A DNA stretch of 64,000 nt from Thermococcus chitonophagus (GTDB lineage: Archaea; Methanobacteriota_B; Thermococci; Thermococcales; Thermococcaceae): assembly GCF_002214605.1 (NCBI RefSeq), contig NZ_CP015193.1:248001-312000 (forward strand), written 5' to 3'. The notes under the pieces are model-generated. The model had not been told where the DNA came from. It worked only from the letters and a program-made list of their open reading frames with translations, and searched no databases. The position numbers and the translations under genes were made by a program. Below, piece by piece: positions 21,981-32,156 of this stretch (its first letter is position 1; every line of letters starts with the position of its first letter).

Positions 21981-22901
21981 ATGCTGATAGACAGGTTTGG
22001 AAGGCCCGTGACAAACTTAAGAATCTCACTAACGAAAGAGTGCAACCTAAACTGCTTCTACTGCCACAGGGAAGGTCAGCTTGACGGAGAGCGAAGGATG
22101 ACTCCCGAGGAGATAGAGAGGATAGTTAAGATAGCATCTCGCTTGGGAATTAAAAAGGTCAAGCTCACGGGAGGGGAGCCCACGATAAGGCCGGACATCG
22201 TGGAGATCGTCAGGAGGATCAGGCCCTACGTCGTTGATCTCTCTTTAACCACGAACGGAACAACCCTCTACACCCTTGCGGAAAAGCTCAAGGAGGCCGG
22301 CCTTGATAGGGTGAACGTGAGCCTCGACACGCTTGACAGGAAGAAGTATAAGATGATCACCGGCTTTGACGTCCTCGATCAGGTTTTAAAGGGAATAAGA
22401 AAGGCTACAAAGCTTTTCCACCCCGTAAAGCTCAATATGGTGGTTATGAGGGGAATAAATGATGACGAGATATGGGACATGATAAGGTTCGCCGGAGAAG
22501 TCGGGGCGATCCTTCAGCTGATAGAGATAGAAGTCCCCAGGGAGATGGAAGATTCCCAATTCTTCAAGGACTTCTTCTATCCCCTAAAGCCCTTGGAGGA
22601 AGAGTTCGAGAAATTGGCTGTAGAGATAAGGGAGAGGAGGATGCATAGGAGAAGGAAGTACTTCCTCCCAGTTGATGGTAAAATCGTTGAGGTTGAAGTT
22701 GTACGGTCGATGCACAACACCATATTCTGCATGAACTGTACGAGGCTAAGGTTGACGGCCGATGGCTACCTTAAGACCTGCCTGCTTAGGAAAGATGACT
22801 TAATAGATATCCTGGGGCTCATGAGGGAAGGTGCCAGTGATGAAGAGCTGGTGGAGGTATTCAGGAAGGCAGTTCTGCTGAGGGAGCCCTACTGGAAATA
22901 A
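21981..22901 (+). CDS. moaA: GTP 3',8-cyclase MoaA
   Basis: A 306-residue radical-SAM enzyme that performs the first step of molybdopterin (here probably tungstopterin) cofactor synthesis from GTP. The N-terminal cluster motif CNLNCFYC (Cys at about 21, 25 and 28) is complete, followed by [10 protein letters not shown]. The second cluster ligands are in the C-terminus ([20 protein letters not shown]). ATG 21981 follows GGAGGT at 21971. moaE, another gene of the same pathway, is at 37.4 kb. Downstream 22902-22903 meets the broken gene on the other strand. Confidence 0.94.
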
Positions 22902-22903
22902 CT

Positions 22904-23162
22904 TTAAGCACTCACCTCAGTTCTTAGCGATCTCACGCTCTCTCCAACTGCCACTGCCAGCAGTGCTACAAGGCCTGCAACAACTGAACCTCACCGTCAG
23001 CTGAGAAACTACCGTTGAAATTATCACAAATCCAATCTCGAACAGCGCCCACCGAATCTTTGAACCATTGTACACCTTAAAGCTTCCATAAAGGAGAAGT
23101 GCGGCTAAGGCAAAGAGCATGATCATGACTCCCAGGTGCTTTACGTTGACATGTGACACCAA
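22904..23162 (-). pseudogene. Frameshifted small membrane-protein gene
   Basis: On the minus strand, the first 58 residues from 23162 (MVSHVNVKHLGVMIMLFALA...VVSQLTVR) carry two membrane helices. The continuing helix GSVVAGLVALLAVAVGESVRSL followed by a stop is found in another frame, so one base change near 22990 splits the gene. A joined product would be about 84 residues with three helices. The family is unknown. A sequence error is also possible. It faces moaA and lies next to the ABC-2 permease. Confidence 0.5.
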
Positions 23163-23268
23163 AACGATTGCATAGATGGGGGTTGCTGATGCCAGCGCAG
23201 TGCCCTTCCTATTTGTGTTTAAAAATTTATTTTAAATGTTGCTTTGTAAATATTGTCGTGAATTCACA

Positions 23269-24240
23269 TCAGCGGATGTCCATTTTCAGGAACCTGTAGT
23301 ACACGAGTGCCATTGGAATTAGAAACATAACACTCAATGCTACAATGTTCCTCATTGCCAGCCCTAGGCTTTCACTGAGAGATCTCTCCTCGACCACGCT
23401 CTGCTCATATGCAAACGAGGAGATCACTTCACTTATCTGGGGCTTTCCTCCAAAGATCAGCCTGACGATTTCTTGGTAGTGGTAATTTGGAGAGATAGAG
23501 AGGATCTTTTCTGCTGTGGTGGTTAACTTGGTGAGCCATGCCTGGTATTCTGGATCCTTCAGGAATAGATCTTGGAGTTGCTCTTCAGTCAGGTTCGTGG
23601 CGTTCTCCAGTATGTTGGGAATTGGGGGCAGGCCAGCTACAGCGAAGGCTATAATCCCAGCTATTATCGAAAGGAGAAAGCCGAAGAATACGAACACGAA
23701 TATACCCATTATGAGCGCGTTCTTGGATCTCTTTATGAATGTGGAAATTAGGAGCCCAATGCTGAGGAAGACCAGGCCGTAGAGAACGCTGAAGGGAAGT
23801 GTTGCCAGGAACTTTACTGCGTCGTCCTCGGTTATGGGGACTCCCAAGATGAGTGCGAAGGCAACTGTTAGGATATAGAATAGCGCCAAGCTAACTCCTA
23901 TCGTTGCAAGCCCTCCTAGTAGTTTGCCCATGAGTATTTCGTCTCTGTGGGTTGGTTTTGATGCTATTAGCTTAAGGGTTCCCTTTTCGATTTCCTCGCT
24001 TATTGAAGTTGCCCCAAGGAGGATTCCCAAGAGGGCTATAGAGTAGTTGAATGCGTTAGAGAAGCTTGAGAGAAAGAGCATTTGGAAAGGCGTTTTATAC
24101 AAGCCCTCACTTATGCCGAGCCTCTTTGAGTAATAAACTATTCCTAGTGAAATTATTGCAAAGATGGCTATTATTATTTGAAATTTTCTTGTTCTAATGC
24201 CAACTTCGAAATCCTTAATGGCTATATTGATTGTTTTCAC
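23269..24240 (-). CDS. ABC-2 type transporter permease
   Basis: A 323-residue membrane protein. An N-terminal cytosolic stretch (TINIAIKDFEVGIRTRKF) and a first helix are followed by the ABC-2 signature SEEIEKGTLKLIASKPTHRDEILMGKLLGG near residues 80-109. Four to five further helices and a large extracellular loop (about 200-275) come after. It resembles NosY/NatB-type permeases. GTG 24240 is chosen because GGTGGTGAG precedes it; the open frame extends to 24345. No ATP-binding gene lies beside it. It is divergent from the small-peptide cluster, so it may export or give resistance to those products; that is inference. Confidence 0.8.
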   Translation of the reverse strand: MKTINIAIKDFEVGIRTRKFQIIIAIFAIISLGIVYYSKRLGISEGLYKTPFQMLFLSSFSNAFNYSIALLGILLGATSISEEIEKGTLKLIASKPTHRDEILMGKLLGGLATIGVSLALFYILTVAFALILGVPITEDDAVKFLATLPFSVLYGLVFLSIGLLISTFIKRSKNALIMGIFVFVFFGFLLSIIAGIIAFAVAGLPPIPNILENATNLTEEQLQDLFLKDPEYQAWLTKLTTTAEKILSISPNYHYQEIVRLIFGGKPQISEVISSFAYEQSVVEERSLSESLGLAMRNIVALSVMFLIPMALVYYRFLKMDIR

Positions 24241-24366
24241 ACTCACCACCAGCCCCTGAATGACAATTAATTTACTTAAAACAATTACCTTTTGAACATT
24301 ATCTCCTATTTGAGTAAAATTATAAAGGAAAAAACATTGTGACAATAACTATCAAGAAAACTTTAA

Positions 24367-24413
24367 GTAGTATTTATAACATTCATTTCATGAGAACTTA
24401 GAGGTGAATCAAA
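24367..24413 (+). promoter_or_regulatory. Promoter of the small-peptide cluster
   Basis: A TATA-like box tatttataa at 24371-24379 is followed by gaggtga (24401-24407) directly before the ATG at 24414. The two features place a transcription start near 24400. Confidence 0.5.
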
Positions 24414-24689
24414 ATGTGGAAGAAGGCCCTAGTATTGGGGCTGGTGTTAATGGCCATAGGGATGGTAGTAGGGGGAGTAGCAGTAGAGAAGGCAGAAATA
24501 GGATTAGTACTTGCAAAGGATCACCTGGTAGATAGAGGCGCAAAAGCGGCTGGGGCTGGAAGTGCGCTTGCAACTGCAGGTGGAGTTGTATATGGTATGG
24601 TGAAGACGGGATTAGTAGCAAAATTTGCTTTGGGATGTGCAGTAGCAGGATTAGGAGTAGCTGCTATTGGAGTAGGAGTGGTATTGTAA
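24414..24689 (+). CDS. Small hydrophobic Gly/Ala-rich peptide, candidate bacteriocin-like precursor
   Basis: A 91-residue peptide. Residues 1-30 (MWKKALVLGLVLMAIGMVV...) look like a signal or leader with Trp-Lys-Lys at the front. Residues 34-91 are a charged turn (AKDHLVDRGAKAAG) and two very hydrophobic glycine/alanine helices ending GVAAIGVGVVL. The overall plan, a hydrophobic leader of about 30 and a helical mature part of about 58, resembles circular bacteriocin precursors such as AS-48, though sequence identity cannot be claimed. Its neighbours (SpoIIM/DUF95 protein, small membrane proteins) support this. It has a strong ribosome site and its own promoter. A broken paralogue lies at 25610. 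Confidence 0.55.
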   Translation: MWKKALVLGLVLMAIGMVVGGVAVEKAEIGLVLAKDHLVDRGAKAAGAGSALATAGGVVYGMVKTGLVAKFALGCAVAGLGVAAIGVGVVL

Positions 24690-24711
24690 ATTAGTTACGT
24701 GAGGTGAGAAA

Positions 24712-25029
24712 ATGGAAAATATGATTGTCTTTAATTTATTTTTAGTTTTTTCTTGTGGAGTCCTAATGGCAACTTATATGAACACTAAGAGGATAGTTGT
24801 TAAACCACTCATTTTCTCCATTCTGGTTTCTGGAATTGTTGAAATTCTCTTGGTTAAGCTTAAATCCCCCTTCGTGGAGTATGGAACTTTTGCAATATTT
24901 CTTTGCACGCTATTATGGGCGTATAAAGATTTTATTTTTGAAAAGTCACATTTGATAAACAGGATATGGAGCTTATTATCCATACTAAACTTCATCTTAT
25001 TCATCATCGTGCTATTAAACTCTATATGA
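24712..25029 (+). CDS. Small four-helix membrane protein in the bacteriocin-like cluster
   Basis: A 105-residue protein, nearly all membrane: helices at about 4-22, 31-50, 57-72 and 84-104, with a short basic loop (NTKRIVVK). It starts after gaggtgag, 22 bases downstream of the precursor-like gene and 17 bases before the SpoIIM gene, so it belongs to the same operon. I recognise no family. A role in immunity or export is suggested only by position. Confidence 0.65.
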   Translation: MENMIVFNLFLVFSCGVLMATYMNTKRIVVKPLIFSILVSGIVEILLVKLKSPFVEYGTFAIFLCTLLWAYKDFIFEKSHLINRIWSLLSILNFILFIIVLLNSI

Positions 25030-25046
25030 CTTGGGGGGATAAAAAT

Positions 25047-25604
25047 ATGAAACACCATTTAATTCTATTTTCATTTTTGCTGTTCTTCATCGGTTTCATT
25101 TTTGGAGTTTCTCTATCATCCCAGTATAGTGTTCCTGAAAATGTAAATTTCAAACCAATCTTAGAGCTCTTAAGACAGAAGTTCAGCGAAGAAAGCTTAT
25201 GTTTTATACACATCTTCACTACCAATCTCAAGGTAGCTCTTCTTCTCTCCTTCGGTGGAGTCTTGACCTTTGGTGGCTTAACGATTCTGAACTTAATTAT
25301 CAACAGCGTGAATTTAGGAATGCTATTTTATGACTCTCTGCTCTTGGGGGAGCTTAAAACATTTTTCCTCTTAATTCTTCCTCACGGCATCTTTGAAATT
25401 CCTGCTATCATCATTGCAGGGGCGGCAGGTTTTAAGATCCCTTATGAACTGTTAAGATATGCTCTGGGCAGGAAGGAAGAAATAATCACGGAGGAAGATG
25501 CCAAAGAATTCTTTAAACTTGTAGCAATCTCGATAGTTCTAATTCTCATTGCTGCTCTAATTGAGAGCACAATAACACCTAAAATAGCCAAAAGTTTGGG
25601 GTGA
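25047..25604 (+). CDS. SpoIIM / DUF95 family membrane protein, copy 1
   Basis: A 185-residue membrane protein with the stage II sporulation protein M family signature ILPHGIFEIPAIIIAGAAG near residues 112-130, an N-terminal helix, a middle pair of helices (LLLSFGGVLTFGGLTILNLIIN) and a last helix (FFKLVAISIVLILIAALIE). ATG 25047 follows ggggggat, so the longer open frame from 24966 is rejected. DUF95 proteins accompany circular bacteriocins (AS-48C, UclB type) but also occur alone in archaea. The second copy is at 26905-27444; a 42-base stretch (25472-25513) is almost identical in DNA between them, showing duplication or gene conversion. Confidence 0.85.
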   Translation: MKHHLILFSFLLFFIGFIFGVSLSSQYSVPENVNFKPILELLRQKFSEESLCFIHIFTTNLKVALLLSFGGVLTFGGLTILNLIINSVNLGMLFYDSLLLGELKTFFLLILPHGIFEIPAIIIAGAAGFKIPYELLRYALGRKEEIITEEDAKEFFKLVAISIVLILIAALIESTITPKIAKSLG

Positions 25605-25609
25605 TTAGA

Positions 25610-25857
25610 ATGTGGAAGAAGGCCTTAGTTATAGGATCTGTGTTAATGGCCCCAGGGATGGTGACAGAAGGAGATGTTAGACATGAAAGCTTTATAGTAT
25701 ATTAAGGTTACAAAGTTAGAAGCCCTGGGAGCTTCGGCTACAGGAGCTTCTGGGGCCATAATAGCTACTGTCATTACTAAGAGCAGTCTTGCCGGTCTTG
25801 CATTGCTTGGAGCAGTTGTCTGGAGGTATTGTAGTAGCTGTAGTCGTTGGATTTTAG
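25610..25857 (+). pseudogene. Frameshifted paralogue of the bacteriocin-like precursor
   Basis: It begins MWKKALVIGSVLMAPGMV, clearly the same leader as the gene at 24414. A stop follows after 31 residues. The rest is in other frames: KVTKLEALGASATGASG then IIATVITKSSLAGLALLGAVV (about 25706-25820), then GGIVVAVVVGF and a stop at 25855. At least two frameshifts break it. The continuation keeps the same Gly/Ala helical style as the intact copy, so it was once a full precursor of about 85 residues. Confidence 0.65.
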
Positions 25858-25893
25858 ATATAATCCTAACCCATTAATTTCGAGGTGATGGAG

Positions 25894-26142
25894 ATGGTTG
25901 AAAACAACTGGGAAAAAATGAGCAAGGAGAAGAGAGCAGTATTAGTGCTTTACACGATTTGCATAATTATGGCGATAGGTATTTTTCTGTACTTAACAAG
26001 GGTCAAGGGTTATACCCCTGATAATCTGCTGAAATTGGCTTTAATGGATCTTTTGCCAGTTTTGGCCGTCTACTTTATCGGTGCAATAATCATATGGAAA
26101 CGTTATGGAAGCAAACTGGAGGAAGCACACTTAAAAGTATAG
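25894..26142 (+). CDS. Small two-helix membrane protein, possible immunity protein
   Basis: An 82-residue protein: charged N-terminus (NNWEKMSKEKR), helix (AVLVLYTICIIMAIGIFLYL), a conserved loop TRVKGYTPDNL, a second helix (LPVLAVYFIGAIIIW) and a basic tail KRYGSK. ATG 25894 is chosen with gaggtg 6 bases upstream. Two damaged paralogues of the same gene lie at 26158 and 28272, sharing the YLTK.KGYTP and LLPVL segments. Size and topology resemble bacteriocin immunity proteins; function is not shown. Confidence 0.65.
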   Translation: MVENNWEKMSKEKRAVLVLYTICIIMAIGIFLYLTRVKGYTPDNLLKLALMDLLPVLAVYFIGAIIIWKRYGSKLEEAHLKV

Positions 26143-26157
26143 GGGGTGAAGGTCACT

Positions 26158-26376
26158 GAATGAAGAGAAAAAGGCAATACTTGTACTTTACTTTGTTAGT
26201 TTAATTTTGGCACAATAGTGACCTTCCTATACTTAACGAAGGTCAAGGGCTACACCCCAGACGACCTGCAGAAAATGATTTTAATGCACCTCCTGCCAAT
26301 TTTGGCCTTTACAGCTCTCGGCTCAATAATAATACTGAAACATTATGGAAGTAAACCCAAGGAAACTCACTCATAA
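26158..26376 (+). pseudogene. Frameshifted second copy of the two-helix protein gene
   Basis: NEEKKAILVLYFVSLILAQ reads in one frame and stops. GTIVTFLYLTKVKGYTPDDL, then ILMHLLPILAFTALGSIIILKHYGSK, reads in another. Together they align end to end with the intact 82-residue protein at 25894. One frameshift or small deletion near 26210 breaks it, and it has no start codon in the first frame. Confidence 0.75.
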
Positions 26377-26614
26377 TGCAAAAGAGCCATCCTCTACATC
26401 AAAGTTCTCCAGATGGAAATTAAGGGGAGAGCCAATAGGGGAAAGAATACGAAGTAGAGTGTTGCTAGTATTAGTGCTAAAAACTTTTGAAGTAACAAGT
26501 GCGTGGGCAGCAGCAAAGATCGGAACCAGTATTGGAAGTAGAATTGGAACCGTAGTTGGAGGTGTGCTCAGAACTGCTATCGGGGCAATTGCTGGGGTAG
26601 CAATTGGTCATTAG
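26345..26614 (+). CDS. Possible second bacteriocin-like peptide
   Basis: An 89-residue ORF. Its first 25 residues overlap the pseudogene at 26158-26376 in another frame and are probably not the real beginning. The last 55 residues are the interesting part: RVLLVLVLKTFEV, then WAAAKIGTSIGSRIGTVVGG, then VLRTAIGAIAGVAIGH. This is a glycine-zipper-rich pair of helices like small pore-forming or bacteriocin peptides. No good ribosome site is seen for an internal start, so it may be decayed at its 5' end. Confidence 0.4.
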   Translation: MEVNPRKLTHNAKEPSSTSKFSRWKLRGEPIGERIRSRVLLVLVLKTFEVTSAWAAAKIGTSIGSRIGTVVGGVLRTAIGAIAGVAIGH

Positions 26615-26671
26615 ATTTGGAAATAAATAATCTCCTTAATTGACACAAATGACAGTCAGGGGGTAGCAAAA

Positions 26672-26908
26672 ATGGAAAACAAGTTACAAGAGAGCATTGT
26701 TTCAGCATCACTATTTATTGTAATTTCAGGCGGACCTTTATTTATTTCTCTATTAACAAATAGTTGGCAGGTAGCAGGATTAGCAGCCGGTGTTGCGGCT
26801 GCGATTGCTCATAGTAATCGCAAAAACCTCAGCGTAAGCACTTTACTAAAACTACTGGTCATGTATATTGTTATAGGTCTATTTTTTAAATTGGGGGGAC
26901 TTCAATGA
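26672..26908 (+). CDS. Small membrane protein in the bacteriocin-like cluster
   Basis: A 78-residue protein with a helix (IVSASLFIVISGGPLFISLL), an alanine-rich helix (WQVAGLAAGVAAAIAHS), a short basic loop (NRKNLS) and a third helix (LLVMYIVIGLFFKLGG). It follows a clear gggggt ribosome site and overlaps the next SpoIIM gene by 4 bases (ATGA), so the two are translated together. The family is unknown. Confidence 0.65.
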   Translation: MENKLQESIVSASLFIVISGGPLFISLLTNSWQVAGLAAGVAAAIAHSNRKNLSVSTLLKLLVMYIVIGLFFKLGGLQ

Positions 26909-27444
26909 GTATTATGTCTAAATCTCCCTTATATTTTTTCTACTTTTATTTTCCTTTTTGGCTTAGTTCTCGGCTTTTCTTAGCACTCAGGCATGACTAT
27001 TCTGCTTATTTTGGCTTTAATCCTTTTGATAATTCCAATCCGTGGTTTTTGTTCTTTTTCAAACACAACATTAAAGTTGCCCTCATATTCTGGAGTGAAG
27101 CAATAACATTCGGAGCCACCACACTCTTGAACTTAACCTTCAATGGCATGATTTTGGGTTCAGCAGTTAAAACTACTGCCACTCAAATTGGACTGTTAAG
27201 AACCCTCCTCATACTCCCTCACGGCATCTTTGAGATTCCGGGAATGATAATTGCTGGAGCTGCTGGCCTCAAAATCCCTTACGAAATTTTAAGGTATGCC
27301 TTAGGTAGAAAGGAAGAAATAATCACGGGAGAAGATGCCAAAGAATTCTTCAAACTCGTAATGATTTCAATAGTTTTGATTTTTATAGCTGCAATAGTTG
27401 AAAGCACAATAACTCTTAAAATGGCAAAAAATTTAGGTGATTAG
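26905..27444 (+). CDS. SpoIIM / DUF95 family membrane protein, copy 2
   Basis: A 179-residue paralogue of the protein at 25047 with the same signature ILPHGIFEIPGMIIAGAAG and the same final helix (FFKLVMISIVLIFIAAIVE). The N-terminal 40 residues do not resemble copy 1. In a different frame, FIFLFGLVLGFS can be read there, which does match copy 1, so an N-terminal frameshift or sequence error is possible. Both SpoIIM genes are followed by gtgattagaatg, the beginning of a precursor-like gene in the first case. Confidence 0.7.
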   Translation: MSIMSKSPLYFFYFYFPFWLSSRLFLALRHDYSAYFGFNPFDNSNPWFLFFFKHNIKVALIFWSEAITFGATTLLNLTFNGMILGSAVKTTATQIGLLRTLLILPHGIFEIPGMIIAGAAGLKIPYEILRYALGRKEEIITGEDAKEFFKLVMISIVLIFIAAIVESTITLKMAKNLGD

Positions 27445-27843
27445 AATGCGGGAAAACTCTCGGAATTGGGAGTTATTATAAGGCGTACGGCTAAGAGCAC
27501 AATAAGAGAGGAAAGGATGTGAAGTGGGATGTTGCCAGTATAATTGCCTATACTTGGCCTACTGCTAATAGCGAGGATAACTCAAAAAGTCCACTATTCA
27601 TAGTTGTTTCGGGCCTTACATTGGGGGAGCTTCGTGGCACCAGCTAAACATCCACGTACAAGGCTCATAGGGACAGTTACAATAGGGTACTCTCTAATCC
27701 CAAAATACTGGCACAGTTCATGAACTAACTTGGATTGAAGTTGGCCGAGGAATAAACTTGAAATGAAAATGGTTGCTAGGGGCACATTACTGAGATGGAG
27801 GTTAATTGGACAAGGAAAATATGCCTTGGGTGAATGTGAGGTG
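27445..27843. other. Degenerate sequence downstream of the second SpoIIM gene
   Basis: After the shared junction gtgattagaatg there is no long open frame on the plus strand. The 85-residue minus-strand ORF at 27594-27851 has no family features or good ribosome site and looks accidental. The position suggests a third, unrecognisable precursor-like gene; I see nothing certain. Confidence 0.35.
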
Positions 27844-28018
27844 ATGCCCATGAAAAATCATACTTTCCGATTTATTCCTAATTTCGCTTTTGCCAAGCTT
27901 AGGATTAGCTCTCGCTGGTATTACAACTGAAAATCCCGAATTGTTGGCTGTTGCCTTGATCAATGTGCTTATCTGGACTCTCGTGCTGTACTGGGGGAGG
28001 ATTGAAAATGGTGTCTAA
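27844..28018 (+). pseudogene. Broken two-helix peptide gene
   Basis: ATG 27850 begins M-K and runs into a run of five A. With one A fewer, the frame continues KIILSDLFLISLLPSLGLAL, then AGITTENPELLAVALINVLI, then WTLVLYWGRIENGV and a stop at 28016-28018. That would be a 55-residue membrane peptide. As written, the ATG frame stops after about 25 residues. A single homopolymer error or a real frameshift are equally possible. It is preceded by gaggtgatg. Confidence 0.5.
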
Positions 28019-28042
28019 AAAGGATTACATCAATTGCAGTAA

Positions 28043-28193
28043 CCTGGGGGAATTATCTGGCTAATTGCAGGGATAAAGGCTTTAGAAAATCTCTAGCAGG
28101 ATGTAACTCCCTGGGTCGTGGGGCGGATTTATTATCGTACTATCTGGGGCACTATTCGCACAACTCGCGAGTAAGTCCTCAACTGTCACGTAA
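28043..28193 (+). pseudogene. Broken two-helix peptide gene
   Basis: PGGIIWLIAGIKALENL, a stop, and QDVTPWVVG read in one frame; GFIIVLSGALFAQLASKSS and a stop at 28191 read in the next. One stop and one frameshift separate them. The joined peptide would be about 50 residues with two helices. It is consistent with the decaying small membrane-protein genes around it. Confidence 0.4.
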
Positions 28194-28271
28194 AGCACGT
28201 GGGGGATATTATGGATCCGAAATCCCCAAAGGCAGGATTATTTGATTTATTCACTTTTTTATCAACTAATA

Positions 28272-28412
28272 ATGGCAGTGCTGATATTCCCATATCTAAC
28301 AAAACTCAAGGGATGCACTCCAGAGGATATCACAGAAGTTGCCCTTATGGTCCTCCTGCCAGTTTTGACATTTCACTTCCTTGATGGAGTGGTTCTAAGG
28401 ATAAATAAGTAG
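28272..28412 (+). pseudogene. Truncated third copy of the two-helix protein gene
   Basis: A 46-codon frame reads MAVLIFPYLTKLKGCTPED, then ITEVALMVLLPVLTFHFLDG. It aligns with residues about 26-80 of the protein at 25894 (FLYLTRVKGYTPD...LLPVL). The N-terminal charged part is missing or in another frame (upstream YSLFYQLI). It converges on rfcL and ends 7 bases before that gene's stop. Confidence 0.65.
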
Positions 28413-28418
28413 AAAAAA

Positions 28419-29858
28419 CTACTTCTTCCCCAGGAAGTCGAAGAGCGTGGCCTGCTTCCCTTTCCTCTTCTCCTTGGGCTTCTCTTCTTCTTTCTTCTCT
28501 TCTTCCTCCTTTATTTCTTCTTCGGCCTCTTCTTCAACTTCTTCCTCAACTTCTTCCTCTATTTCCTCTTCCACCTTTTCTTCCACTTTCTCCTCTTCCC
28601 TCTTGGTGAGCTTGAGCTTCCTCCTCAATGCTAAGGCCTTCCCCCATATTGTCCCCGCGTTCTCCTTCCCCGCTAGGAACTCAACCTCCTTCTCGCTCAA
28701 TCCCAAGAATACCGTGAAGTGTGCCGCTAAATCTAGATTGTTCTCGAAGATCGTCCTGATGATCTTCATGGTCTCTATGGCTTCAAGTTTGCTCATGTGC
28801 ATCTCTCTCATTATCTTCTTTATAATTGAATCTCTAAGCGATCTTTCCTCCTTGCTTTCAGCCAGCATCTTTAGGGTGTTTGGTGGGTAGAACTTGGCGA
28901 AGCCTCTCTTTTTCGTTCCTGCCACTGCAACTCCAGCGGTCATCATGTCTATAGCGTACTTCCACAGTGAATAGTTCCCCGTTCTTTGGGCCCTGCCTAG
29001 ATAAATGTCGGCCCTGCTTATGGCCTCGTAAGCTTTGGCCATCTCCTCCGGCTTTAGGTACATGTGGGGGATGTTCTCATCTACCCACAGCAGGAACTCA
29101 TCTGGCGTCATGTCCAAATTCCACGTGGCCATCTTCGCCCTCTTCGCGTTGTCGCTCCCAAACACCAAACCCAACGCCTGGAACACCGTCTTCTCTACAT
29201 CTCTGTACGCTAAAACCTGCTTTGCATCCTCGTAGCCTCCAACCACGACTGTTTGCAGGTCGTTTATCGCAGCTCTTAAATCACCACTTGATCTCTTGGC
29301 TATCTCGTACAGGATGTCCTTTGGTACGGTAATCCCTTCCCTCTTTAGGATCCTTATAAGGGCGTTCATTACGTCCCTAACGCTGAGCCTCCTGTACTCC
29401 ACTAGCTCCGCCTTGTCCCTTATCTCCTTTGGAACCTCCCAGTACTTGTTCGCCGCCATTATTATCGGGTTCCTTGCCCTGTCTATCAGCTTTGCAATTT
29501 CCTTTGCTCCGCTGGGCTCTATGTTGTCCGCCTCGTCAAGAAATATCAGCTTCCTCCTCTTCCCCAGGATGTCCATCGTGTATGCTGCCTGCACGTACCT
29601 CGCTATCTTCTCGTAAGTCCTCTCATCGCTCGCGTTCAGCTCGATTACCTCGAAGTTGTATTCATTCGCCAGCGCATATACCGTAGTAGTTTTGCCGCTT
29701 CCTGGGGGTCCTGCCAGCAGTAGGGCCTTTTTCTTCGGCGGATTACCGTGGAGCCACTTCTCTATCCACGACTTTACTTTCTCAATCGCATCCTCCTGAT
29801 TAACTATCTCGCTCAGCCTTCTCGGCCTGTACTTCTCAACCCAGGGAAGCTCTGGCAT
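28419..29858 (-). CDS. rfcL: Replication factor C large subunit
   Basis: A 479-residue clamp-loader subunit that, with RfcS, loads PCNA on DNA. The AAA+ Walker [10 protein letters not shown] is at residues 48-56 and the Walker B IFLDEADN near 104. The arginine-rich [10 protein letters not shown] region and the collar domain follow. After residue 420 comes a long acidic run of EEEVEEE type, then lysines and the C-terminal PIP motif [11 protein letters not shown]. Downstream of rfcS with 6 bases between, so both are one operon. The acidic tail makes long antisense ORFs that are not genes. Confidence 0.96.
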
Positions 29859-29864
29859 CTTCCA

Positions 29865-32156
29865 TCACTTCTTGCCTATTAGGGTGAACTGGGCAAGCAG
29901 GGCCTCGAGCTGAATCATTTCATTTGCTCCCTCAACCAAGCGGAAGTTGTACTCGCCTATCTTGTCAGCTAATTGGACCTTCTTCGGCTCACTTATCGGC
30001 AGGTTGAAGACTTCCTTGTGCATCTGAACTAGAACGTCTTCTCCGCTCAGCCCCTGCTTCAGGAGGATCTCCCTCAGCTTCTCCCTAGCCTTGAGGAAGT
30101 TGCCTTCTAGTGCTAGGAGCATCATCTCCCTGATGTCTTCCGGTCTGGCCCTGCTGGCCACCATGAATACGTTCTCATCTGTTATCTTCTTGTCCAAGGC
30201 TGCTGCCGCCTGCAGGATATTTATCGCCCTTCTCATGTCGCCTTCAGCGATGTAGAGGATCGCCTGCAGGCCTTCCTCGGTCAGCTCTAATCCTTCGTTT
30301 TCGGCTATAAACCTTAATCTTTTTGCTATATCCTCATCGCGCAATGGTCTGAACCTGAATATAGCACATCTTGACTGGATGGGCTCGATTATCTTGCTGC
30401 TATAATTACAGGATAAGATAAAGCGAACGTTGCTCGAAAACATCTCCATTGTTCTCCTTAAGGCCTGCTGGGCGTCTTGGGTCAGGGCATCTGCCTCATC
30501 AAGGAATATTATCTTGAAACTCGCTCCTCCTATGGGCTTTGTCCTTGCAAACTCCTTCACCTTCTCCCTAATGACGTTTATGCCTCTCTCGTCTGAGTTG
30601 TGAAGGAGAACCGGTATTTCGCCTGCAAAGAACATCTCGTTTCCTGGGACGCTAACATCGTAAACGAAGTCGTTGTACTCAACTAGTTCAATCTTCTTCA
30701 CCATTAGGGCGTGTAGATCTGTGTAGGCAAGCTTCTTCAGGGTTTCGAGAATTCCCCTCTCGCCCTCGTTCAGTTTGTCCTCGTTTATCATGTCTATGAT
30801 TTTTCTTAGTGTTTCCTTCCTGACTCTCTTCTTCCGCTCATAGAGCTGATGCCTAAGCTCGTAGCGCCAGTTGCCCTCTATCGCATGTTCTATTTTCTTG
30901 AGCATCTTAACTATCGGCTCCGCTGGGAGCAACTCTGCCTTTGCCCACTTCATGCCTCCCTTCCATATCAGCCTGGCCTCACGCTCGAATATGCTTGCTT
31001 CTATTCCAGAAATCCTCGCGAGCCACACGACGTCTATTAGCATGTCCCTTGAAACTGAAGATATTCTGATTACACTCTCCCACTCTCCACTTCCATCGCC
31101 ATCTGCGAGCCCTCTCAGGAATGCTATTCTCTCATGAACTGGGAACTCGAATATGAACCCAGGAACTCTCTTATTTTCTGCCCTCCTTCCTTCTCCGTCG
31201 TAGAAGCTCTGTTCAAAGAACTTCGCCAGTTGCGTGTTTAGGAGCCTAACTTGGTAGGCAGTTTTCCTTGATCTATCAAACCCTGAGGAGATGTAGTTCT
31301 CGTAGACGCTGATTCCTAGCCTTTCTGCGAAGTTCCTCACTCTGTCTATTAGTTCTTTTTCGTGGGCTCCGAGGGTGTAAATAACTTGGCCCGAGGTTTC
31401 TCCTTTGAATCCGATGGCACCTTCAGCCGCGTAGAGACCCAGCATGTAGGAGATTTCTTCATCAACCGATAGCTCACTGAATACCCTTGTCCTTGGCGTT
31501 TCCCTCACGCTGTACCCGGTAAGGTCGAGGATATCCAAGAAGCCCTCGAGGTTTGTCGTGAAGCTTAGCAGTATTGAGCCCTCTTTAAGCTCGCTCGCCT
31601 TTATTGTTTCGAGGCCATTCTCAGTGAGAACGATAACTGAGTGATTTCCAGTTAGTTCAAGCTTTCCTCCTCCCTCCAAGTGCACTCTGAGAATTGCTGG
31701 AACGCGGTGGCGGATTACCTTGCTGACCTTGGCCCATCTGACGCGATAGTTTTCATCGACGGTCAACACTTCAAGGTTATCAACGTCCTTGTACGACACT
31801 TCTCCATCGTCATCGTCAAAGTACATCTTATCAAGTTCCGCAAATGTTGTCCTCAAAATCCTGCCGTTTATCCTAACCAGTATGGGGGTGTCTTTTGAAA
31901 CTGAGGCATTTAATTCAAGGAAATTGTGTCTCCAGTTTTCTCCGAAGAGTTCTCGGGCTAAAGCTAGCGCACTGGTCGTTTTTCCCGTGCCAGGAGGCCC
32001 AGCGAAGAGTAGATGCGGCATTGAGCCCGTTTTAACATAGTGTTTTAGCCTTTTAACGATATGCTCCTGCCCAACGATGTCATCAAGCTTTTGAGGCCTG
32101 TACTTTTCAACCCAAGGCTTTTCAAGAACTTTTACTTCCCTGACCTCTTCGGCCAT
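29865..32156 (-). CDS. rfcS: Replication factor C small subunit, intein-containing precursor
   Basis: A 763-residue precursor; the spliced protein is 327 residues. The Walker [12 protein letters not shown] is at residues 52-62, just before the intein, and the Walker [11 protein letters not shown] is in the C-extein. The SRC motif of clamp loaders ([10 protein letters not shown]) and the collar domain are intact. The intein interrupts [11 protein letters not shown], a known RFC insertion site in Pyrococcus. The start ATG lies 140 bases from the divergent DUF457 gene. First gene of the rfcS-rfcL operon. Confidence 0.96.
30597..31904 (-). mobile_element. Intein in RfcS with LAGLIDADG-type endonuclease
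   Basis: The intein is 436 residues, precursor residues 85-520. It begins with Ser ([10 protein letters not shown]) and ends VLLHN, followed by Ser. Block B is [10 protein letters not shown]. Endonuclease-type motifs are [12 protein letters not shown] and [14 protein letters not shown], both with an acidic residue in the catalytic position. It sits right after the P-loop region of the ATPase, so an unspliced protein would be inactive. Confidence 0.92.

Follow-up and report, generated by a model that had tools for sequence, protein, structure and literature searches.

Does the 64,000-nucleotide stretch of Thermococcus chitonophagus DNA analyzed here (the window; positions 248001-312000 of a 1,961,979-bp Thermococcaceae genome) encode an archaeal counterpart of the loci that make circular bacteriocins in bacteria? 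The question was raised by a first-pass annotation, which pointed to Gly/Ala-rich peptides with leader-like N-termini beside SpoIIM/DUF95 proteins, small membrane proteins, and an ABC-2 permease. Circular bacteriocin clusters of bacteria have in common, besides the precursor and a DUF95 protein, an ATP-binding cassette (ABC) transporter and an immunity protein that is small, cationic, and hydrophobic (PMC6131525); all known circular clusters contain a precursor, DUF95, and an ATP-binding protein, joined in the cerecyclin cluster by YIP1 and an ABC transporter of three genes (PMC8534725), and SpoIIM has been termed class-defining for circular bacteriocins (PMC13289728). Genome mining for circular bacteriocins has reported Firmicutes, Actinobacteria, and Thermotogae only (PMC8534725), and the accessible portion of a 2025 BAGEL-based archaeal search mentions no circular types (PMC12352652). 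As detailed below, we conclude that the window holds part of a real, broad, and well-structured system that is best described as working like a circular bacteriocin system rather than as a confirmed one. A bacteriocin-type function is likely; the more specific proposal, polymorphic archaeal bacteriocins (archaeocins) operating in the manner of the circular bacteriocins of bacteria, is, in our estimate, marginally better than an even bet, and for head-to-tail cyclization of the core the chances appear about equal either way.

The argument starts from positions 24414-25604, which hold the sole intact cassette, composed of a putative precursor, a small cationic protein with multiple transmembrane (TM) segments, and an accessory SpoIIM/DUF95 protein (Table 1). 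The 24-amino acid (aa) leader followed by a 67-aa core, the presence of SpoIIM in the cluster, and the small cationic hydrophobic middle protein correspond, as sequence features, to those of circular bacteriocin clusters, in which leaders span 2-48 aa. Most of the components named in the first-pass annotation held up: both SpoIIM/DUF95 proteins match PF01944 (5e-34 and 3e-26), several small membrane proteins of 1-4 TM segments are present, and the divergent ABC-2 permease at 23269-24240 lies on the minus strand and matches PF12679 (3e-37). Of the three peptides described there as leader-bearing and Gly/Ala-rich, only that at 24414 has a hydrophobic leader and a Gly/Ala-rich C-terminal part; 25610 is a frameshifted relic, and 26345 has no leader-like N-terminus. 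The 24414 precursor has intact counterparts, at 86% and 81% identity, in two genomes that belong to another genus, and the family of its middle gene, F18, is present only next to the same core type (loci L081, L072, and L074). Class III signal peptides of type IV pilins carry a charged-Gly/Ala-Gln motif before the hydrophobic stretch; this motif is absent here, and a type IV pilin-like leader was rejected. We note that the 5' region and promoter (GTGGTAATCAA ... AAAAACTTTTTAT ... GGTGGTAAT) are strongly conserved ahead of otherwise dissimilar precursors (L072, L081-L084, and L087-L089), which suggests that these genes may be under shared regulation.

Is the cassette particular to this genome? 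Over 94 Thermococcaceae genomes, the precursor search gave matches in 19, of which 17 were kept; the matches in G012 and G059 were dropped as ~400-aa secreted proteins with only the signal peptide in common (L069 and L070), and an extra SpoIIM match in G019 was not counted as a cassette because it sits in a 540-aa frame. A scan of genome contigs with the window precursor as a single query gave no matches, probably because of the variability of leader and core, while a scan with the SpoIIM alignment succeeded. The repeating unit is precursor, small multi-TM protein, SpoIIM, which occurs singly or in tandem with up to five units per contig (L072); the joint recurrence of peptide, middle gene, and SpoIIM in many genomes documents that the arrangement is not due to chance. 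Among 26 Thermococcales precursors, mean identity is 0.72 in the leader and 0.24 in the core, the leader being the near-invariant first 24 residues (consensus MWRKALALGLVLMAxGVVVGGAVE). The middle genes belong to many unrelated families, each associated with one core type, and SpoIIM is similar throughout. To quantify this association, we compared 29 cassettes, counting only pairs between different genomes, and permuted the labels 20,000 times. Forty-two pairs were similar in the core, 24 in the middle protein, and 22 in both; the permuted mean for the last class was 2.6, with a maximum of 11 in the 20,000 permutations.

The precursors are also linked to SpoIIM. An extra SpoIIM adjoins the precursors in 17 of 17 precursor-bearing genomes, and an extra match was found in three other genomes (Fisher 5e-16), a single-copy SpoIIM being present in nearly all Thermococcaceae; none of the 17 genomes had the peptide and lacked the DUF95 neighbor. 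Moreover, L076 and L077 contain rows of middle-gene families with no precursor, and these look like immunity genes retained against other strains. Constant and variable precursor parts, an effector-specific downstream gene, and orphan immunity-like genes are all features of polymorphic toxin-immunity systems. Polymorphism with a matched partner would also be compatible with peptides that act as quorum signals or as self/non-self factors in kin recognition, the middle protein being the matched receptor, and for other variable proteins that Thermococcus secretes, a 2014 study suggests a part in quorum sensing or in conflict (PMC4158269). However, the middle proteins are small TM proteins with no regulator, kinase, or DNA-binding domain, no recurrent regulator lies beside the cassettes, and the rows without precursors in L076 and L077 suit immunity better, so that we hold a signaling function to be improbable. 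One middle family (L064:7546-7740, L083:10010-10207, and L088:6653-6790) consists of a TM segment and a stretch resembling the core of its own partner (KYHxYMELYRxAL...KSYAEEY), as if immunity acted by mimicry. Several arrays also contain genes or fragments of the VapBC-like antitoxin and PIN-toxin kinds (L074:7205-7813, L066:4931-5543, and L075:5592-6141). Relatives of the accessory SpoIIM were found neither in IMG/VR viral contigs nor in PLSDB plasmids, and no carrier element was identified.

A second component follows the precursors across genomes. Of the 17 precursor genomes, 15 carry the F4 permease orthogroup (at least 62% identity), to which the window permease belongs, and all 77 others lack it (Fisher 1.5e-15, a value that ignores relatedness); an F4 fragment of ~80% identity persists in a sixteenth precursor genome. 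This co-occurrence agrees with presence and absence within several genera and holds even where F4 is unlinked to the precursors. Thermococcaceae also have a family-wide operon consisting of permease A, an ATPase, a large secreted protein of ~720 aa, and permease B. Cassettes adjoin this operon, and an ATPase, in L063, L073, L078, L079, and L090, and an ATPase adjoins cassettes in Methanococcales as well. In one genus, F4 is mostly unlinked to precursors and replaces the first permease of the operon (L093-L099); in the window's genus, F4 alone lies beside the cassettes and the standard operon is located elsewhere, with an ATPase ~80% identical to the others (L092, L104, and L105). The lone window permease probably works with the ATPase of the paralogous operon at G000:C1:1251215-1256324. 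Of note, the first permease is exchanged for F4 only in precursor-bearing genomes, and L090, in which F4 and a truncated ATPase precede the standard operon, is a likely intermediate.

How far does the system extend beyond Thermococcales? The scan with the SpoIIM alignment retrieved loci of the same architecture and with different leaders from Methanococcales (MKFLxxxVYKIFGAxVLVSMIGALVAEPVxLGD) and Archaeoglobales (MYAVRRWDExxVIKWLAVAMVLAMVGLAVMPA), and such precursors, often in arrays, turned up in order-wide searches of Methanococcales (15 of 36 genomes) and Archaeoglobales (21 of 57). Three core and middle-gene pairs are shared between orders: L117 (Archaeoglobus) with L074 from the window's genus (core z 10.6-12.6, middle z ~11.8), L120 with L241 (27.7 and 10.4), and L239 with L248 (13.0 and 17.4). 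The shared pairs carry unrelated leaders, and their observed number was reached in 0 of 5,000 within-order permutations. In the SpoIIM tree, the accessory copies form order-specific clades for Thermococcales (20/20, support 0.998), Methanococcales (26/26, 0.967), and Archaeoglobales (19/19, 0.877), and the housekeeping Thermococcaceae SpoIIM forms a separate clade (0.992); the node uniting the three accessory groups is poorly supported (0.27), and two copies labeled accessory that fall outside the accessory clade are the housekeeping copies of L067 and L071. The leader and SpoIIM thus track the host lineage and the core and middle gene track each other, as would be expected if the local machinery reads the leader and the middle protein protects against the core.

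Most fetched Methanococcales arrays are followed by a fixed set of genes for YIP1 (PF04893, 8e-29 in L244), a secreted CARDB protein, an ABC ATPase of the MacB/SalX type, and an FtsX-like permease, and in several Archaeoglobales genomes YIP1, a CARDB protein, an ATPase, and a permease lie in or near the locus. Makarova et al. (2015) assign the SpoIIM (arCOG01996) cassettes of the same loci and lineages to membrane-remodeling or vesicle-forming complexes, owing to YIP1 (PMC5898192). That explanation rests on the joint presence of YIP1 and SpoIIM domains, a pairing found in Methanococcales and Archaeoglobales and not, at the curated YIP1 cut-off, in the window genome, and it leaves unexplained the constant leader and hypervariable core, the joint replacement of core and middle gene, the decayed arrays, the patchy presence, and a 5.5-kb island that is absent from sister genomes; because the housekeeping SpoIIM also forms a clade of its own, we give remodeling only a very small chance. 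L120 (DQSS01000334.1), labeled Arcobacter, carries two precursors of the Archaeoglobales type and an accessory SpoIIM and is probably a misbinned contig. Genes that are presumably HicAB-like and PIN genes lie inside Methanococcales and Archaeoglobales arrays, and L236-L238 encode P-loop ATPases of ~340-365 aa beside or between Methanococcales cassettes, which on visual inspection resemble archaeal ATPase_2 proteins. Finally, L126 (JAJYQA010000028.1, 5016-6294), labeled Actinomycetes, encodes a SpoIIM whose best segment shares 52% identity with the accessory type of the archaea and whose gene directly follows one for an ABC ATPase; it is a possible bacterial bridge to the circular-bacteriocin clusters.

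Within the window, the cassette lies in an island between moaA, a MoaA-type radical SAM gene, and rfcL, the gene for the large subunit of replication factor C. Because six further genomes of the genus (L258-L263) have moaA and rfcL nearly contiguous, with an empty gap of ~100 bp, the island either was inserted in the window genome or was lost from the others. The feature is wider than the annotated extent of 24414-28412: relics of further cassettes span 22917 to 28412, leaving 24414 as the only credible working precursor. The frame at 25610 is disrupted past codon 31, with the remaining core in a different frame, and the "LYLTRxKGYTPED" family of its intact immunity-like neighbor adjoins the same "WKITHSE" core type in L078 and L072. 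A reading of this neighbor (25885-26142) as YIP1 was not accepted, the Yip1 match being weak (E 0.0015, below the cut-off), and the family search with the 78-aa protein at 26672-26908 gave no match. Islands with decay, VapBC-like genes inside some arrays (L074 and L066), and the term membrane-associated defense systems used in the 2014 study (PMC4158269) could also fit an intracellular module of the toxin-antitoxin-like or abortive-defense kind whose hydrophobic peptide is directed at its own cell. Against such a module, the presence of a leader, SpoIIM, and a dedicated transporter points to export, and the cassette contains neither nuclease nor sensor; it seems highly unlikely to us. Beyond the island, the gene for the small subunit of replication factor C (29865-32156) contains a long in-frame insertion of the intein type, giving 763 aa in total.

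Table 1 Features of the island and its borders (window coordinates; cf., comparable gene in the locus named)
Feature	Position	Strand	Remarks
moaA	21981-22901		Left border of island
Whole island	22902-28418	.	5.5 kb; moaA ends at 22901, rfcL starts at 28419
F3a-type immunity-like relic	22917-23126	-	Left island edge; cf. L076:7415
ABC-2 permease, divergent	23269-24240	-	F4 orthogroup; PF12679 3e-37
Promoter-like element and ribosome-binding site of precursor	24357-24407	+	AAAACTTTAAG... and GAGGTGA; counterpart AAAACTTTTTAT / AAAACTTTAAAT upstream of other Thermococcales precursors
Putative bacteriocin-type precursor	24414-24689	+	91 aa; leader-profile match; core type shared with L081, L072, L074
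Precursor leader	24414-24485	+	24 aa; MWKKALVLGLVLMAIGMVVGGVAV; cleavage point approximate
Precursor core	24486-24686	+	67 aa; Gly/Ala-rich; C-terminal end ...GVAAIGVGVVL
Middle gene, putative cognate immunity protein	24712-25029	+	Family F18; 105 aa; cationic, isoelectric point 9.1; 3-4 TM
Accessory SpoIIM/DUF95, intact	25047-25604	+	185 aa; PF01944 5e-34; clade apart from housekeeping copies
Degenerate precursor	25610-25860	+	Family leader, then frameshifted "WKITHSE"-type core; cf. L078:7656, L072:8403
Immunity-like 2-TM protein, intact	25894-26142	+	"LYLTRxKGYTPED" family; partner of degenerate precursor 25610
Immunity-like protein, second copy, truncated	26218-26376	+	"LYLTRxKGYTPED" family
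Leaderless core fragment	26474-26614	+	C-terminal ~46 aa of the 26345 open reading frame; akin to cores of L087/L089/L079
Small membrane protein	26672-26908	+	78 aa; between core fragment and second SpoIIM
Second accessory SpoIIM	26905-27444	+	N-terminus diverged; PF01944 2.7e-26, profile positions 39-162
F14-type immunity-like relic, frameshifted	27560-27720	+	FIVVSGLTLGEL... / ...KHPRTRLIGTVTIGYSLIPK; cf. L087:8448
F36-type immunity-like relic	27890-28018	+	cf. L072:14050
Immunity-like relic	28242-28412	+	"LYLTRxKGYTPED" family
rfcL	28419-29858		Right border of island

Is the mature peptide a ring? The core lengths (median 66 aa, range 45-102 aa) and hydrophobic C-termini suit the circular class: 65 of the 66 cores end in a hydrophobic or small residue, mostly Leu or Ala, and seven of the 66 have a charged residue among the last eight positions, compared with 39.6 expected from whole-core composition. 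The middle proteins have a median length of 95 aa, and 94% of 69 are cationic. We favor cyclization, since the circular-bacteriocin class is defined by the SpoIIM family. The same toxin-immunity system could instead produce a linear peptide, in which case signal peptidase would remove the leader as an ordinary Sec-type signal, and the role of SpoIIM and the ABC transporter would be confined to export or insertion. The leader does combine an n-region (W-K/R-K) with a hydrophobic stretch and has small residues close to its end, unrelated secreted Thermococcaceae proteins start alike (L069 and L070), the cassette contains neither ligase nor protease, and DUF95 loss in one bacterial system stopped secretion and not ring closure (PMC6131525). 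On the other side stand the class-defining role ascribed to SpoIIM (PMC13289728) and the core features just described. To our knowledge, no described linear bacteriocin class uses SpoIIM. Taken together, we consider a linear product unlikely, though it is the alternative that we take most seriously.

Several observations weigh against the proposal of a system working like the circular bacteriocins. First, because the DUF95 knock-out in that bacterial system still accumulated circular peptide inside the cells, SpoIIM may export rather than cyclize (PMC6131525). Second, the cores are less uniform than characterized circular bacteriocins, with Cys in 20 of 66, lengths of 45-102 aa, and a net negative charge in many. 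Third, profile searches for known circular bacteriocin families, which the first-pass annotation had proposed as a check, gave no precursor match: 23 precursors had no Pfam or NCBIfam match at E<=1 to circular families (PF09221, PF12173, and TIGR03651) and none to circular bacteriocin families of the PDB. AlphaFold (AF2) models of two cores from shallow alignments are helical and of low confidence (predicted local distance difference test 51.1 and 53.8, predicted template modeling score 0.21 and 0.32), and Foldseek found no PDB match with them; they speak neither for nor against a saposin-like helical bundle. Fourth, in the window genome no YIP1 match exceeds the curated cut-off, no ABC ATPase adjoins the permease at 23269-24240, and the window holds one intact precursor plus relics rather than three precursors. 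Finally, cassettes are inherited as linked units, and the correlation between core and middle gene partly reflects shared descent; shared descent is insufficient, because the leader before and SpoIIM behind are constant while exactly core and middle gene co-vary. The failed match to described circular families bars filing the peptides under an existing family and is not required of a new subgroup. The annotation as an archaeal counterpart of circular-bacteriocin loci thus stands with respect to constant leader and variable core, core-immunity pairing, co-occurrence with SpoIIM and ABC genes, and the two parallel orders, and falls short in the single intact precursor and the lack of a family match.

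With these points in mind, we propose the following working model for the archaeocin system. The order-specific hydrophobic leader would target the precursor to the membrane, where SpoIIM and the ABC transporter would receive it, remove or help to remove the leader, probably join the ends of the core, and export the mature peptide. Outside the cell, the Gly/Ala-rich core would permeabilize the membranes of neighboring archaea that have no matching small protein, and the small cationic multi-TM protein would shield the producer against its own core. Almost nothing is known of peptide warfare among hyperthermophilic archaea, and the literature searched contains no circular archaeocin. The peptides may be the first circular-peptide antibiotics of archaea, made by a SpoIIM-dependent ring-closing and export pathway common to bacteria and archaea and combining order-specific leaders with core-immunity modules that cross orders, a proposal that we rate a little short of even. 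The comparison yields the exact sequences of dozens of precursors together with their predicted immunity partners. It also supplies a swap experiment made by nature, the same core behind another leader, through which two questions become testable: how the leader is recognized, and what part SpoIIM/DUF95 plays in forming the ring or in export. As scaffolds, peptides adapted to temperatures near 100 °C would be of practical interest too.

How does the system compare with known ones? The loci themselves are those of the arCOG01996 cassettes, in which SpoIIM is accompanied by YIP1, a SalXY-type ABC transporter, and small membrane proteins that have diverged. The 2014 account describes the cassettes of Archaeoglobi, Methanococci, and Thermococci as membrane-associated defense with SalXY-type transporters (PMC4158269), and in the accessible portions of neither this nor the 2015 account (PMC5898192) were the precursors, their leader/core structure, or the core-immunity pairing recognized. 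The present analysis thus gives a new reading to genes that publications of 2014-2015 assigned to defense or membrane remodeling. A survey of archaeal antimicrobial peptides by Makarova et al. from 2019 (mBio 10:e00715-19) may anticipate part of this reading. With known archaeocins (halocins, halocin C8, and archaeal lanthipeptides), the peptides would share secretion as archaeal antimicrobial peptides after leader removal, which is predicted here; no family match to them was found, and the maturation genes differ, SpoIIM taking their place here. Like polymorphic toxin-immunity systems and bacteriocin arrays, the cassettes have a constant N-terminal part, a variable and presumably toxic part, and, downstream, a putative immunity gene matched to it, and they likewise show orphan copies of such genes, decay, and exchange; unlike those systems, the predicted effectors are very small hydrophobic peptides, and SpoIIM stands in place of a large trafficking domain. 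With the circular bacteriocins of Bacillota (enterocin AS-48, circularin A, and cerecyclin), they share a leader and a hydrophobic core of ~60-70 aa, SpoIIM/DUF95, a small cationic membrane protein with a putative role in immunity, and, probably, ABC transport, and the likeness to the cerecyclin cluster in YIP1 holds for the Methanococcales and Archaeoglobales versions. In contrast to the Bacillota peptides, the archaeal precursors have no sequence similarity to them and combine a constant order-specific leader with interchangeable cores in arrays of several cassettes, the ABC-2 permease of the Thermococcales version is often unlinked to an ATPase, and for the archaeal peptides we infer cyclization from the company that the precursors keep.

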